Assembly (NCBI GenBank): GCA_021828715.1
Contig: JAJZDF010000054.1
Span: forward strand, 1-5,665
DNA: 5,665 nt
Origin: Thermoplasmata archaeon
Lineage (GTDB): Archaea; Thermoplasmatota; Thermoplasmata; Lutacidiplasmatales; UBA184
Reading direction: 5' to 3'
Shown: positions 2-5,106 of the stretch, piece after piece
Numbering within the stretch: the stretch's first letter is position 1
How the letters are laid out: the number at the start of each line of letters is the position of its first letter
Position numbers and translations under genes: made by a program
Notes under the pieces: model-generated
Told to the model about the DNA's origin: nothing
The model's input: only the letters and a program-made list of their open reading frames with translations
The model's database searches: none

Positions 2-1090
2 AACGCGTCGACCCGGTTCGCTGTCGCCGCGCCCGGCGCCGCGCTCCCGGCCGGCCGCAGCGACCTCGTCGAGTACATGCTGCCCCCGCAGTCCGCTCTC
101 GCGCTCCGGGTGATCGGGATCGGCAGCGGCTCGGAGCAGGACAAGGGCGCCGACGGCGCGCGGATGCAGGAGTTCCTCTCCCAGCTCACCCGCCGCGCCC
201 AGTCCCTCGGGCTGCCGGCGGCGTTCACCTATCAGGAGGTTGCGACCGGGGGAGCGCTGTTTGCGCAGATGGTGAACGCCTTCCTCGACGTCGGCTACGA
301 GGAGGATCGGGCGATCGAGGACCTCCATCCGGAGGAACTCGCCCAGCACGCGGCGAATGCCGCCCGAGCCCTCAAGGAGCCGCAGCAGCACGCCACCCTC
401 ACGCGACTTCGGACCGCGGCTCCGGCCGCGGACGCCCCGTACACCGAGGCGCCCGACTTCGAGGTCGACGTGCTCTCCTCCAGCGCGGGCCCGGCGACGA
501 CCCCGGCCTACCTCAAGGAGCGGTACGGACCGCTGGGGGAGATCGTGGAGGCGTACCTGGCCGGTCAGTTCGACCGGGCCCTCGAGCTGGTCGGGCGCTC
601 GGGAGGGGTCCTTCCGCCGGTGACCCGCCTCTACTGGGAGGCCCGGGTCCAGTTCGCGCGCCGGGCGATCGTGGAGGCGGCGCGGGCGCTTCTCCAGGCC
701 TGGGAAGAGGTCGACCGCCTTCCCGCCCCGGCGCAGGCCCGCGTCCTCCGGCGCCTCGCTCTCCTGCAGGCCCGGATGCAGAACGACCGGGAGACGGAGA
801 CCCTGGTGCGGTTCATCGACGAGACCGAGCACCGGCTGGCCGGCGCCGACCCGAACGTACGGGCGCGGCTGCAGGAACTGTTCGCCCGGATGCTGGAGCT
901 GCGCGGAACATACCAGCTCACCCGATTGGCGGAAGAGGACGATCTGCAGGACGCCGCGATCCGGCATGAGGCGGCCGTCGAGGCGGTCTTCGGCCAGCTC
1001 CAGGACGCGCGGCTCGACCTCTCCTCCGCGGGGCCGGTCGCGGAAGGGGCGCTCGACTTTATCGAGATCTGCTTGGCGGAGATGCGGTAG
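2..1090 (+). CDS. Partial helical-repeat protein, 5' end outside window; first gene of GTPase cassette
   Basis: I do not recognise a named family. The frame is open to the left edge. The 25 codons before the first in-window ATG (77) contain no stop and no ATG, GTG or TTG, and 24 of 25 end in G or C like the rest of the gene, so the true start probably lies upstream; 362 codons are visible. Codons about 33-100 look alpha/beta: a hydrophobic strand (LALRVIGIGSG), an amphipathic helix, then a GGALF turn before another helix, faintly like the C-terminal half of a von Willebrand A fold (low confidence). Codons about 135-170 are a low-complexity Ala/Pro/Thr linker. Codons 171-340 are nearly all helical with TPR-like pairs (for example AYLAGQFDRALELV), which suggests a protein-binding scaffold. 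No signal peptide or membrane segment is visible. It ends with TAG, 15 nt before the GTPase gene, so the two are probably co-transcribed and functionally linked (inference). Confidence 0.85.
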   Translation, partial: NASTRFAVAAPGAALPAGRSDLVEYMLPPQSALALRVIGIGSGSEQDKGADGARMQEFLSQLTRRAQSLGLPAAFTYQEVATGGALFAQMVNAFLDVGYEEDRAIEDLHPEELAQHAANAARALKEPQQHATLTRLRTAAPAADAPYTEAPDFEVDVLSSSAGPATTPAYLKERYGPLGEIVEAYLAGQFDRALELVGRSGGVLPPVTRLYWEARVQFARRAIVEAARALLQAWEEVDRLPAPAQARVLRRLALLQARMQNDRETETLVRFIDETEHRLAGADPNVRARLQELFARMLELRGTYQLTRLAEEDDLQDAAIRHEAAVEAVFGQLQDARLDLSSAGPVAEGALDFIEICLAEMR

Positions 1091-1105
1091 AAGGGTACCA
1101 CCATC

Positions 1106-2272
1106 ATGACGGAGGTCAAGGTCACCACAAAGACCCGGCGCGCGCCGGGAGCGAAGCGCGAGACGAAGAAGACGCCGGATTCGGCCCGGATCGCAGTCGT
1201 CGGGATCCCGGCGTCGGGCAAGACCACCTACTTCCGGTTCCTGGCCGGCCATTTTGGCCTCAACCTGCCGATCCTCTACGTGCCGGCCCGGCAGGACGGG
1301 GGCGCGTTGCCGATCTACGGCGACCTCGAGAACGACGTCGCGCTCGAGGAGACGACGTACGAGACGACCGATCCGACCGACCCCGAGGGAAGCCTCGAGA
1401 CCACGACCCGGTTTTACGTGAACCGCCCGATGGAGGATCGCCGTAAGCTCTGGGTCGAGCTCGCGGCCGGCCGGGACGAGCAGGGGGTGCTCACGAAGTA
1501 CCCGCTGCCGACGAAGTTCAACCAGTTCGTCGAGATGAAGATGCGGTTCCGCTACGGCGCCCCCGATGGGGAGGCCGGCTCCCGCCCGATGGAGCTCCAG
1601 ACGATCGACGAGGCGGGCGGGATCATCGCGGACTACTTCACGTACGATCGGCTCTGGATCGATTCCGAGGAGGGGGAGGTCGCCGAGCGCAGCTGTCGCG
1701 TAATCCCCCACTTCGATTCGTGGCGGCCGGACCGCCGCGACCTCTGGCGGCGGGGGCTGACCCTGCTCGGGAGGTTCGTCCAGGGAGCGGACGCGATCAT
1801 CCTCCTCCTCGCTCCGACGCTGCCGTCGCTCCACGACCAGGCGCAGCAGGTGAACCTTGCCCGGGGCGTGTTCAAGTACGTCCGTTCCCGTAACCTTCCC
1901 CTGGTGATCGCGATCTCCAAGGCGGACAAGCTGAAGGAGTTCTACGGCGAGATCGACCAGTCGGTCCGGGAGCGGACGTACCGCAGCGCCTTCGACCCCA
2001 CCGACTTCCTGCTCCGTCGGGATGGCGGGGGGATGGGGACGATCCTCGTCGCCCAGGAGGGACGCGGGATCTCCGTGAAGCAGGACGTCTTCCTCGTCTC
2101 GAGCGCCGTCTCGACGGGCGGTGGACACCCGATGCTCGTCGGAGACACCGGGGAGGAGGCGCCCACGGTGGGGACGCCCACCCTCGGAGTGCCGGTGATG
2201 GTGAACACGACGCTCCCGCTCGCGCGCGCCTGCGAACGGATCCTCGAGCGCCGGGCGACGAAGGGGGCGTGA
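1106..2272 (+). CDS. P-loop GTPase (TRAFAC-like, resembling the double-GTPase group)
   Basis: This 388-residue protein is a probable cytoplasmic GTP-binding switch. Visible motifs are a Walker A/G1 GIPASGKT at 33-40, a likely G3 with DEAGG at 168-172 after a hydrophobic strand, G4 SKAD at 271-274 in the strand-loop LVIAISKAD, and a G5-like SSA at 332-334. Between G1 and G3 a segment at 129-141 (LTKYPLPTKF...) recalls the 'P-x-T' switch region that I associate with double-GTPase-type proteins. Only one GTPase domain is present, so it would be a single-domain relative. The first 28 residues are basic and probably disordered. Residues 75-101 are an acidic, Thr-rich insertion. ATG at 1106 is the only reasonable start, since no other ATG, GTG or TTG precedes the P-loop in frame. 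It overlaps the next gene by one base, implying coupled synthesis with the coiled-coil protein. The GTPase class is solid; the subfamily and biological role are inference. Confidence 0.9.
   Translation: MTEVKVTTKTRRAPGAKRETKKTPDSARIAVVGIPASGKTTYFRFLAGHFGLNLPILYVPARQDGGALPIYGDLENDVALEETTYETTDPTDPEGSLETTTRFYVNRPMEDRRKLWVELAAGRDEQGVLTKYPLPTKFNQFVEMKMRFRYGAPDGEAGSRPMELQTIDEAGGIIADYFTYDRLWIDSEEGEVAERSCRVIPHFDSWRPDRRDLWRRGLTLLGRFVQGADAIILLLAPTLPSLHDQAQQVNLARGVFKYVRSRNLPLVIAISKADKLKEFYGEIDQSVRERTYRSAFDPTDFLLRRDGGGMGTILVAQEGRGISVKQDVFLVSSAVSTGGGHPMLVGDTGEEAPTVGTPTLGVPVMVNTTLPLARACERILERRATKGA
2260..2267 (+). promoter_or_regulatory. Ribosome binding site deciding the start of the coiled-coil gene
   Basis: The purine tract GAAGGGGG ends 4 nt before ATG 2272 and only 1 nt before the alternative GTG 2269. 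The spacing favours ATG. The start overlaps the GTPase stop codon as TGATG, so ribosomes ending the GTPase can restart here. Confidence 0.45.
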
Positions 2273-5106
2273 TGGGCGCACCGGACGGACGAACGGGCGG
2301 CCACACGCCCGTCGCCGTCGTCTGGTGCCGCCAGGTCGACCACGAGGCCGAGAGCCCGGGGTACACCACCATCCCGGACGACTTCCCGGGCCGCCGCGAG
2401 ACGCTCGATACGATCCGGGTCGTCGGGAACCTGACCGTCAACGTGGCCGACACCCACGACTACTGGGACCCGGATCCCTCCGCGCCCCTCTCCTACTACC
2501 CGAACCTGTTCCTCTATCCGGCCGCCGGCGGCCGCTACACGTGCGTGGGCCGGATGTTCCTTTCCACCGAGGACCGCCCCCGGATCGGGATGAAGACGCT
2601 CGTCTTCGAGACGGCCCCGCTGCTCGCCAGCGGCGAGTTCGCCCCCGTGGTCCTGCGGGCCCACGCCACGATGGGCGGTCGCGCGGTCGAGGGACGGCCG
2701 GCCGCTGACCCCGACCTGCCGGTCTACCAGGCGGTCGGGGAAGGGTTCCTCTTCCACCGCGGCTCCACCGAGCCGGTCGTCGTCATCGCCTCCGATCAGT
2801 GGGAGGCGGCGAACCGCGTCGTCCTCGATTTGGTCGCCGAGATGCCGACGGCGCTCGTCGCGCTCGGGGCCTTCCTGGTGTTCCCGTACTTCCTCCCCGT
2901 CGCCAAGGTCGACCTTCACCAGTTCACCGAACAGTTGCCGCTCGCGCTCGCGGTGATGCGGGTCGCTCGGGCCGAGGCGAGCGGGGAGCGGCATCAGAAG
3001 CGGATCGCCGGCTGGGAGGCGTCGCCGGTCGCGCTGCGGGACCTCACCCGGCCGGGGACCGGTCGGGCGGCCAAGGATGCGCTGCCCCTCGTGCTCCAGT
3101 ACGCCCGCGACCGGGCGGAGGAGCGGCTCTCCGAGATCTCCCGGCGGGTGGACCTGGTGGAGCGGCCCCGCCTGGACCCCCTGCGGGTCGATCCGGACCG
3201 ACAGTCCGGGCGGGAGCGGCGCAAGGAGATGTGGCGGATCGGGACCGCGATGGAGACGGCCGCCTTGCTCCTCAGCCGGCCGCGCGGACGCACGGTGCCG
3301 ACGAGTCGCGATGCCGCGCGCCGGGCGAACGAGTACGTGAACGCCCCGGCCGGGGGGACCCCGGTCCCTCCCGTCGTCCCCGCCCCGCCGACCGCCGACC
3401 CGGGAACGGCGGCCACCGCCTCCCTCCCGCCGTGGCTGGCGGGGCCGGTGGAGGTCCCGCTGGGCGGGACGGCTTCGGCGACCGTACCCGTCCCCATCCA
3501 GAACGACTCCTCCCTGCTCCGGGGCCCGGCCTCGACGCCGTCCCCGACGGAGGACCCGGGAGCCCCCGGCCGTTCCGGGCTCGACGCCCGCCTGGCCGAG
3601 GCGAGCGAGAGCGCGGCCCGCGCCCTCGCCCAGAGCCGGCACGACCTCTCGGCCCGCCTCGCCGCGGTCGAGGCCCGCGGGACGGTCGACCCGGAGGCGA
3701 TCGCGCGGAACGTCGAGGAGCGGGTCCGGGCGACGGTCGACCCCCAACTCGCCCGTATGCCGGAGCTGTCGCGGCAGGCGGTCGACGCCGCCGCGGAGTC
3801 GTTCCGGGGCGAGATCGACCGACTGACGCGGGAGATGGCGAGTCGCGCCGCGAAGACCGAAGAGGAGCTGCGCGCGGCGCTCGTCGCCCAGCTCGACCTC
3901 GAACTCCGCGAGGCGAAGGAGCAGGGGGTCGCCCTCCGCGAGCAGATCGAGTCCAACGTCCGCTCGATGGTCGATCGCCGGGGCGCCGAGCTCGATGCCC
4001 AGCGCGCGAAGGAGACGCGGGAGCTCGAGCAGCGCCTCCTCCACCTCGTGGATGGGCGGGCGAAGGAGCTCGAGTCGCGGCTCGGGGAGCTCGTCGGCAC
4101 GCGCGCGAAGGAGTTCGCGACCCGGCTGGATCAGGAGATCGGCGCGGACCGTGCCGCCGCCGACGACCGCCTGGCCCAACTCACGAAGCGGATGGACCTC
4201 GAGCGCGAACAACGGTTCGCGGAGATCGCGGAGACCCACGCGAAGTCGCTCGCCGGCCTCCAGGTCCGGATGCAGTCGTACCTGGACCAGAAGCTCCGCG
4301 AGGACGGAGACCTGGAGCGGGGGAAGTACGTCGAACTGCTCGCCCGCCTGAAGGGGGAGGTCGATCAGGCGCTTGCCCGCACGATCGACTCGACCCGCTT
4401 CGACGCGGCGGTCCGGGAGCGGATCGACCGAACGGTCGAGGAGACCCGCCGGGAGTACCTTCGGGCCATGGGAGACCTCGAATCCCGTCTGACGCGCGAC
4501 CTGGGCCCGAACGCCCAGCGCCTCGACGCCCTCGAGACGAAGCTCCAAGAGCGCGCCGACGCGATGGCGGAGGTAGAGGCGCGGGTCCGACGCGAGATCG
4601 ACGACCTCGACCGGCGCGCCCAGGTCCTTTCGGACAAGATGCTACCGCTCGTACGCAAGACCTGGGTGCGGATCGAGGAGATCGAGAAGTTGCTCGGGAG
4701 CTCCGACGACACCGAAGCGAGATTCGGCCAGCTCCGCCGGGACCTGGGACGCGAGCTGCGTCGGGTCGAGAGCCAGTTCCAGGAGGAGCAGGCCGCGCTC
4801 CGCCGGCGCCTGGAGCACACCATGACGACCCAGAGCAAGGTATGGATGAACCTGGTCCGCCAACTCTCCGAGTCGGGGGCCGGCTTCGCCCCGTCCGACG
4901 AGGAGCTTCCGTCCGCCCGGTCCGCCCGGGAGAGCCCCCCCGACGACCTCGAGCCGGCCGGGCGAAGAGGCGGCCGGGAGGCGCCGCCGTACGCCGGCTT
5001 CGAGGAGGCCGTACCGGATCCCGCCGAACCGGAGCGGCCCGACGATCCCCCGGTGGGCTCCCGCCGCCCCCCGAGCCGCTCGAGCCGGGGCGGGGCGCAA
5101 CGCTAA
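2272..5106 (+). CDS. Large coiled-coil protein with GAP1-N-like N-terminal domain
   Basis: This is a 944-residue protein of unknown function. Residues 1-240 form a globular beta-rich domain. It includes VAVVWCRQ (14-21), ESPGYTTIP (27-35), YTCVGRMFLSTEDRPRIG (89-106) and a hydrophobic MPTALVALGAFLVFPYF stretch (191-207). The order and spacing recall the GTPase-associated protein 1 N-terminal domain (GAP1-N), a by-eye match with no search behind it. Residues 240-357 are helical and charged. Residues 358-436 are a Pro/Ala/Thr/Gly linker. Residues 437 to about 865 are an almost uninterrupted coiled coil rich in Arg, Glu, Ala and Leu. Residues 871-944 are a disordered Pro/Arg/Glu tail. No transmembrane span or ATPase motif is seen, so it is not SMC or Rad50. 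The ATG at 2272 overlaps the GTPase stop (TGATG). A GTG at 2269 is also in frame but lies too close to the purine-rich ribosome site. A likely role is effector or scaffold controlled by the upstream GTPase (inference). Confidence 0.88.
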   Translation: MGAPDGRTGGHTPVAVVWCRQVDHEAESPGYTTIPDDFPGRRETLDTIRVVGNLTVNVADTHDYWDPDPSAPLSYYPNLFLYPAAGGRYTCVGRMFLSTEDRPRIGMKTLVFETAPLLASGEFAPVVLRAHATMGGRAVEGRPAADPDLPVYQAVGEGFLFHRGSTEPVVVIASDQWEAANRVVLDLVAEMPTALVALGAFLVFPYFLPVAKVDLHQFTEQLPLALAVMRVARAEASGERHQKRIAGWEASPVALRDLTRPGTGRAAKDALPLVLQYARDRAEERLSEISRRVDLVERPRLDPLRVDPDRQSGRERRKEMWRIGTAMETAALLLSRPRGRTVPTSRDAARRANEYVNAPAGGTPVPPVVPAPPTADPGTAATASLPPWLAGPVEVPLGGTASATVPVPIQNDSSLLRGPASTPSPTEDPGAPGRSGLDARLAEASESAARALAQSRHDLSARLAAVEARGTVDPEAIARNVEERVRATVDPQLARMPELSRQAVDAAAESFRGEIDRLTREMASRAAKTEEELRAALVAQLDLELREAKEQGVALREQIESNVRSMVDRRGAELDAQRAKETRELEQRLLHLVDGRAKELESRLGELVGTRAKEFATRLDQEIGADRAAADDRLAQLTKRMDLEREQRFAEIAETHAKSLAGLQVRMQSYLDQKLREDGDLERGKYVELLARLKGEVDQALARTIDSTRFDAAVRERIDRTVEETRREYLRAMGDLESRLTRDLGPNAQRLDALETKLQERADAMAEVEARVRREIDDLDRRAQVLSDKMLPLVRKTWVRIEEIEKLLGSSDDTEARFGQLRRDLGRELRRVESQFQEEQAALRRRLEHTMTTQSKVWMNLVRQLSESGAGFAPSDEELPSARSARESPPDDLEPAGRRGGREAPPYAGFEEAVPDPAEPERPDDPPVGSRRPPSRSSRGGAQR
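4045..4269 (+). repeat. Five 15-residue coiled-coil repeats inside the large coiled-coil gene
   Basis: Five consecutive 45-nt units encode LVDGRAKELESRLGE, LVGTRAKEFATRLDQ, EIGADRAAADDRLAQ, LTKRMDLEREQRFAE and IAETHAKSLAGLQVR. Hydrophobic residues recur near unit positions 1, 9 and 13, and Arg/Lys/Glu elsewhere. The two best-matched units share GCGAAGGAG (at 4060 and 4105). The same 9-mer, in the same Ala-Lys-Glu frame, also occurs at 3913 and 4006. A related segment begins at 3967 (MVDRRGAELDA), 26 residues (15+11) before the first unit. This is protein-level periodicity and probably old internal duplication, since the DNA copies have diverged. Confidence 0.6.

Follow-up and report, generated by a model that had tools for sequence, protein, structure and literature searches.

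A conserved vWA–GTPase–partner cassette in Lutacidiplasmatales archaea and the predicted longin-like domain of its partner protein

The three genes and their products

The window analysed here is a whole contig of 5,665 bases from a Thermoplasmata genome (0.97 Mb, 69% completeness), in which three genes on the same strand encode a von Willebrand factor A (vWA) protein, a P-loop GTPase and a large partner protein (Table 1). The first two genes are 15 bases apart and the last two overlap by 4 bases. Relatives of the window include Candidatus Lutacidiplasma silvani and genomes titled Thermoplasmata archaeon; the titles of these 41 named relatives place the neighbourhood in the Lutacidiplasmatales, Thermoplasmatota (order name as it appears in a passage of PMC9287336). 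A first-pass annotation, made from the DNA letters alone, had described a GTPase-centred cassette here, and its packed genes, overlap, G motifs and coiled coil were confirmed by open frames, motif alignment and a composition and heptad script. The alignments used below (A1–A6) consist of hand-picked rows rather than all relatives.

Table 1. Coordinates of the features in the window and the evidence for each
Feature	Position	Strand	Basis
vWA protein, C-terminal 362 residues	2..1090	+	Open frame, no start in window; 5' part past contig end
P-loop GTPase, 388 residues	1106..2272	+	Open frame, relatives, invariant columns, motifs, profile comparisons
Large partner protein, 945 residues	2269..5106	+	Open frame; immediately 3' of the GTPase in 48/48 testable loci
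Predicted longin-like domain (model residues ~1–133)	2287..2685	+	AlphaFold model, structural neighbours
Predicted alpha/beta part, then long helices, in DENN-like order (model residues ~136–340)	2692..3306	+	Suggested by model secondary structure; two DENN rows extend into the region
Pro-rich linker (residues ~361–430)	3349..3558	+	Composition
Coiled-coil arm (residues ~480–868)	3706..4872	+	Heptad periodicity, C-terminal consensus
DUF2116 protein, 62 residues	5131..5319	+	Pfam
Pantetheine-phosphate adenylyltransferase CoaD, start only	from 5332	+	Pfam

Full-length relatives of the first protein have about 500 residues, with an N-terminal vWA domain and a remainder that reads as helical. The window copy, 80% identical to the one at locus L029, sets in just past the TDG motif, so that it comprises the last portion of the vWA domain and the apparently helical C-terminal region. 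The Pfam family VWA_2 is matched by every row but one in alignment A2 (17 of 18; best E 8.5e-12; 32.4 bits against a cut-off of 27 for L029), the exception being the truncated window copy, in which no Pfam family was found at E up to 1. The DxSxS and TDG motifs are kept in all 17 full-length rows, which together with the Pfam match identifies a vWA domain carrying a metal-ion-dependent adhesion site. The vWA-like part that had been suggested for this protein therefore holds, and the TPR-like helices do not, as no TPR family was found in the 18 rows at E up to 1.

The G motifs of the second protein, GIP-SGKTTYFR, DEAGGII and SK-D-L, are kept in all 22 rows of alignment A4, which includes the window and draws on several genera of the family. 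The window itself has GIPASGKTT, DEAGG and ISKAD, the family form of the last being SK(A/S)D. The stretch between the P-loop and DEAGG is long and conserved, with invariant blocks such as LTKYPLPTK. Judged by these motifs the protein reads as a P-loop GTPase, as had been proposed. In DEAGG a Glu directly follows the Asp (22/22); in alignment A6 a nearly invariant Glu instead follows DxxG, and the wording in a passage of PMC7159879 leaves the position of the conserved DO-GTPase Walker B Glu unfixed.

The coiled-coil arm of the partner protein was delimited by composition and heptad periodicity with a simple custom script rather than a standard predictor, and it ends in a family-conserved segment (RKTW ... 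WxxLVxQLS). Partner open frames measure 560–1327 residues in 23 proteins, including that of the window; the arm ranges from short to very long and its tip stays conserved.

Conservation of the trio and its genomic site

We compared 53 loci (41 plus 12; L124 and L125, whose contigs are those of L058 and L057, were omitted). Immediately upstream of the GTPase gene, the vWA gene is present in all 50 loci with room for it, as is the partner gene immediately downstream in all 48; adjacency here means the same strand, fewer than 400 bases between tblastn match ends and at least 600 bases of room. This gene order is not due to chance. Of the 400 class genomes scanned, 74 have the GTPase; all belong to the window's family and they are spread over seven genera. 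Seven matches outside the family below E 0.01 are short P-loop pieces (E 7.8e-4 to 0.0095). The partner domain was found in 70 of the 400 genomes, every one of them among the 74 with the GTPase. In three of the remaining four (G226, G021 and G314) the GTPase piece lies at the very start of a contig; in the fourth (G335) the piece is partial. At one further locus (G300:C19:7142-8928) the GTPase and partner genes seem to be in several pieces, through frame errors or decay.

The class scan listed 20 GTPase-negative genomes, all of the same genus, and left 299 further negatives unlisted. The vWA protein and the partner domain were also absent from the nine of these twenty genus-mates that were tested; an exception is G222, with a vWA gene at a contig end and neither GTPase nor partner. 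A scan of the phylum with A4 gave matches in 22 of 389 genomes, 19 of them in the window's family and the other three short P-loop pieces (E 8.8e-4 to 0.0041), one inside a DO-GTPase2 frame of G104. At the sensitivity used, the trio is restricted to one family. The three genes travel together, as the first-pass annotation had supposed, and homologues of the GTPase do not mostly occur alone. A viral origin was rejected: scanning viral contigs with A4 gave 53 pattern stretches and no relative among them.

In genus g1 (L035, L061) the gene order is S19e, L31e, aIF6, S17e (reverse), trio, DUF2116, CoaD and further genes including an M50-like one and GlmM; DUF2116 and CoaD were labelled by Pfam in the window, the others by reading the sequences. 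About 5 kb separate the trio from DUF2116 at L042. The site was retrieved for six of the nine trio-less genus-mates (in G019 and G206 aIF6 is near a contig end, and G010 has no aIF6 match); all six have the same flanks, with their S17e and DUF2116 matches 88–212 bases apart. The DUF2116 protein, a probable treble clef with a hydrophobic C-terminal segment, thus adjoins the trio and is present in the six trio-less loci too. In a quick tree of concatenated rows, the six trio-less genomes fall inside trio-bearing clades, with two changes as the minimum and one forced by starred branches. This tree covers 45 of 64 loci (L124, L125 and 17 loci with fewer than four markers excluded), has 26 of its 42 inner branches starred and includes several rows less than half filled. 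The position of the six genomes makes it probable that the ancestor there had the block, which was then lost as a whole.

Other genera differ in their flanks. The downstream flank is kept in g24 (4/4 loci) and g26 (1/1), where S19e, L31e, aIF6 and S17e were not found upstream, and in g64 the trio is intact at all four loci (L113, L114, L115 and L119) with none of the ten flank markers found. The trio genes are therefore tied to one another rather than to their ribosomal neighbours. Neighbours of the moved and divergent copies include GNAT, methyltransferase, asparagine-synthase-like, KaiC and pirin families. Downstream of the L115 copy is a 1000-residue protein with a weak match to Big_1 (Ig-like; 0.0024).

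Median identity over 45 locus pairs (ten loci) was 73% for the GTPase, 66% for the partner N-terminal domain and 61% for the vWA protein, compared with 79% for L31e, 73% for S17e, 73% for a 73-residue protein, 67% for S19e, 62% for aIF6 and 50% for CoaD; GlmM (66%, 15 pairs) and M50 (56%, 36 pairs) were compared over fewer pairs. The GTPase is thus conserved at the level of the neighbouring ribosomal proteins. This conservation and the presence of S17e in 37 of the 53 loci would suit a ribosome-linked GTPase module, in which the site beside S19e, L31e, aIF6 and S17e would stem from a function in ribosome assembly and the vWA protein would be a Midasin-like client binder. A structure model of the GTPase also resembles Nog1-particle chains, but the model is too poor to lean on. 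We consider a ribosomal role improbable, given the g64, g24 and g26 loci without those genes beside the trio and the genus-mates that live without it.

Fast evolution would be expected of a conflict system, and conservation of the trio at the ribosomal level therefore disfavours a conflict role. The same conclusion follows from inheritance as a block, and the first-pass annotation's 'conflict' cassette loses ground on both counts. As for mobility, there is one site with block loss in g1 and occurrence in one family only, yet there are other locations in g64. No FNIII or GASH domain was found by profile search of the window genes and of ten neighbours of the moved or divergent copies. The PADLOC matches were limited to LmuB (coiled coil, 0.00094) and PtuA (GTPase, 0.068), and assignment as a defence system was rejected.

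Placement of the GTPase and predicted fold of its partner

DO-GTPase systems, as outlined in passages of Kaur et al. 2020 (PMC7159879), are mobile neighbourhoods of a DO-GTPase, GAP1 (N, M and C), FNIII or GASH, and effectors, found in bacteria and a few archaea. One rival reading is that the trio is a divergent system of this type, a cassette that senses invaders and whose partner is a GAP1 with an N-terminal domain that has drifted past the reach of profiles. Placement of the GTPase lends it some support. No Pfam family is above its cut-off for the window GTPase. Over the 22 rows, AAA_18 matches 22 (best E 0.00024), ATP_bind_1 22 (best E 0.00069) and GTP_EFTU 19, all three below their cut-offs for the window's row; DO-GTPase2 matches six (best E 0.043), with no DO-GTPase profile over its cut-off. 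In profile–profile comparison with hhalign, ten archaeal DO-GTPase2 rows gave 95.7% (E 9e-9). With trimmed profiles the values were 91.0% for all ten rows, 91.6% for the f19 group (20 columns only) and 70.4% for the f8 group, compared with Obg/DRG 84.3%, FeoB 79.0%, YchF 76.7%, NOG1 67.6%, IF2 36.1% and HflX 33.1%. In an hmmsearch of 34 GTPases the top four were DO-GTPase rows and the remaining six were interspersed with the 24 others, all below 14 bits. DO-GTPase2 appears weakly the nearest among the families compared, which is a preference rather than proof.

A PDB sequence search with the GTPase gave 18 weak matches; 16 fell at the P-loop region. DO-GTPase2 matches in G037 and G039, where the gene order is the same, were rejected as orthologues; neither region matched the trio GTPase, and we take these proteins, from our own reading of their sequences, to be HflX-type GTPases.

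For the partner protein, a GAP1-N assignment by profile was rejected on sequence. GAP1-N2 matched 0 of 21 rows in Pfam (limit E 10, although HMMER filters drop most matches above 0.1), and all 945 residues, searched at E up to 1, gave neither a GAP1-M nor a GAP1-C match; GAP1-N1 was compared through Pfam only. Against archaeal GAP1-N2-type proteins hhalign gave 0.2–0.8%, and column-shuffled controls reached the score in 3/60 (whole), 16/60 (longin part) and 1/60 (rest). The profile test is limited in power, because the GAP1-like neighbour of DO-GTPase2 at L086 (G104) likewise has no Pfam match at 0.01 (18.3 bits, below the cut-off). By eye, and afterwards rather than as a test, we noticed that the partner domain (A3) and the archaeal GAP1-N2-type rows (A5) share a W (21/21 and 9/10) and a G-17 residues-R-x-G pattern (21/21 for the partner; 10/10 for the G and R and 9/10 for the last G in the GAP1-N2 type). 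These common residues are suggestive of a tie to GAP1. Together with a partner gene immediately 3' of the GTPase, as in GAP1 systems, and the vWA proteins of some GAP1-N2 systems (in a passage of PMC7159879), they favour the rival; the failed profile matches, shuffled controls, block inheritance, conservation and meagre PADLOC result speak against it, and we regard it as unlikely.

The AlphaFold model of the partner N-terminal domain (predicted local distance difference test 85.8, predicted template-modelling score 0.87) contains strands (E) and helices (H) at E10-15, E25-29, H36-52, E68-70/E74-79, E84-93, E99-108, H109-115 and H118-129, which on this predicted model is the longin order of strand, strand, helix, three strands and two helices. 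The first 22 rows of its structural neighbours all come from longin, DENN, Rag-like, GATOR1/KICSTOR, TRAPPII, EGO, MON1-CCZ1 or FLCN entries. Lokiarchaeal chains are at the top, and Roadblock rows occur, ranked below most longin rows. Only about 100 residues align well; two DENN rows extend into the following alpha/beta-plus-helical part. A PDB sequence search with the domain gave no match at E up to 10. The prediction for the partner is thus a longin-like domain at the N-terminus, with the alpha/beta and helical parts behind it arranged in a DENN-like order. A reading of the third protein as a GTPase regulator could accordingly survive in another form: profiles do not support the resemblance to GAP1-N suggested by the first-pass annotation, and the predicted longin-like fold resembles regulators of small eukaryotic GTPases.

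Such a domain next to a GTPase also recalls membrane or polarity systems of the MglA-MglB kind, with a longin-like domain in place of the roadblock GTPase-activating protein. No Arf, Ras or Roadblock family is among the Pfam matches (22 GTPase rows, 21 partner rows), the GTPase model is poor, and this reading of the trio seems to us remote.

A putative GTP-dependent switch and known systems

We propose, with a probability of roughly 0.55, that the three proteins form one GTP-dependent switch in which the predicted longin/DENN-like domain of the partner would dock onto the GTPase and control its nucleotide state, by speeding either hydrolysis or exchange. Since DEAGG places no glutamine right after DxxG, turnover of the GTPase would probably require the partner. 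The metal site of the vWA protein may serve to recognise a ligand or client, and the long, length-variable coiled coil with its conserved tip could tether or oligomerise the regulator. The switch might have a housekeeping role in assembly or positioning. Inheritance with the lineage and constraint at the ribosomal level make such a vertically inherited housekeeping switch more likely than a mobile conflict cassette.

In eukaryotes, the GTPases that act in membrane traffic and nutrient sensing are under the control of longin and DENN proteins. If the proposed switch is real, a regulator of this type would exist outside eukaryotes and their closest archaeal relatives, in a small, purifiable prokaryotic system for testing how longin-DENN-like regulators act on a GTPase; the clean joint losses of the trio would provide natural knock-outs for comparison. 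Longin relatives are known from Asgard archaea (in part of PMC10933270), and the DENN module is described as eukaryotic and traced to the ancestral eukaryote (in part of PMC3521125). It is a tentative and rather doubtful extension that this non-Asgard operon holds a GTPase with its own complete longin-DENN regulator, a tripartite DENN in prokaryotes, and that the bacterial GAP1-N domains are hidden longin relatives; the words 'longin' and 'DENN' have 0 occurrences in the main text of PMC7159879. An operon of the proposed kind could link bacterial GTPase-centric systems to eukaryotic regulators.

DO-GTPase/GAP1-type systems exist in other Thermoplasmata (L129, L086 and L071). At L129:376-3369 (G278) a P-loop GTPase gene adjoins a protein with GAP1-N2 and GAP1-M over their cut-offs. 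L086:5963-13128 (G104) is an archaeal cassette of this type, with DO-GTPase2 (8.7e-12), then a GAP1-N2-like neighbour that falls short of the Pfam cut-off and, two genes on, a membrane protein with a weaker match to DO-GTPase1 (0.00055) at its end. The DO-GTPase2 genes of L071, L074 and L075 (family f8) read as zinc-ribbon proteins and lie near the apparent start of a DnaK-like gene; at L071 a GrpE gene (Pfam 1.4e-6) stands between the two, which is the HSP70 theme of GAP1-N2 systems in archaea.

In the trio, as in the DO-GTPase/GAP1 systems, a large dedicated partner is encoded just after a TRAFAC-type GTPase, and some versions of those systems include a vWA protein (in a passage of PMC7159879). 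The trio differs from them in having no GAP1-N, -M or -C match, a single GTPase, inheritance and loss as a block with the lineage, and a long coiled coil. Of the archaeal form of the bacterial pairing that had been proposed, the GTPase-centred cassette, the vWA protein and the GTPase, weakly nearest to DO-GTPase2 among the families compared, stand, and the GAP1 identity lacks support from profiles; in view of the missing GAP1-N profile match we therefore describe the cassette as working like GAP1 systems rather than file it among them. With the eukaryotic longin-DENN modules (DENND, C9orf72, NPRL2, FLCN/FNIP) the partner shares a predicted longin-like domain, then alpha/beta and helical parts, and an assumed dedicated GTPase, but it has no PDB sequence match, aligns well over only about 100 residues, belongs to a one-GTPase operon and carries the long coiled coil. 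MglA-MglB likewise pairs a prokaryotic GTPase with a co-encoded roadblock/longin-type regulator; the trio differs in its longin order of elements, in having no Roadblock match in Pfam (21 rows), in its extra alpha/beta and helical parts, and in its 388-residue GTPase and vWA protein. The Asgard longin and roadblock proteins (in part of PMC10933270) are also archaeal and their longin-like domains are tied to GTPases, but they belong to another phylum, and the small GTPase genes of MK-D1 are generally outside operons with longin or roadblock genes (again from part of PMC10933270), whereas here GTPase and partner lie side by side.
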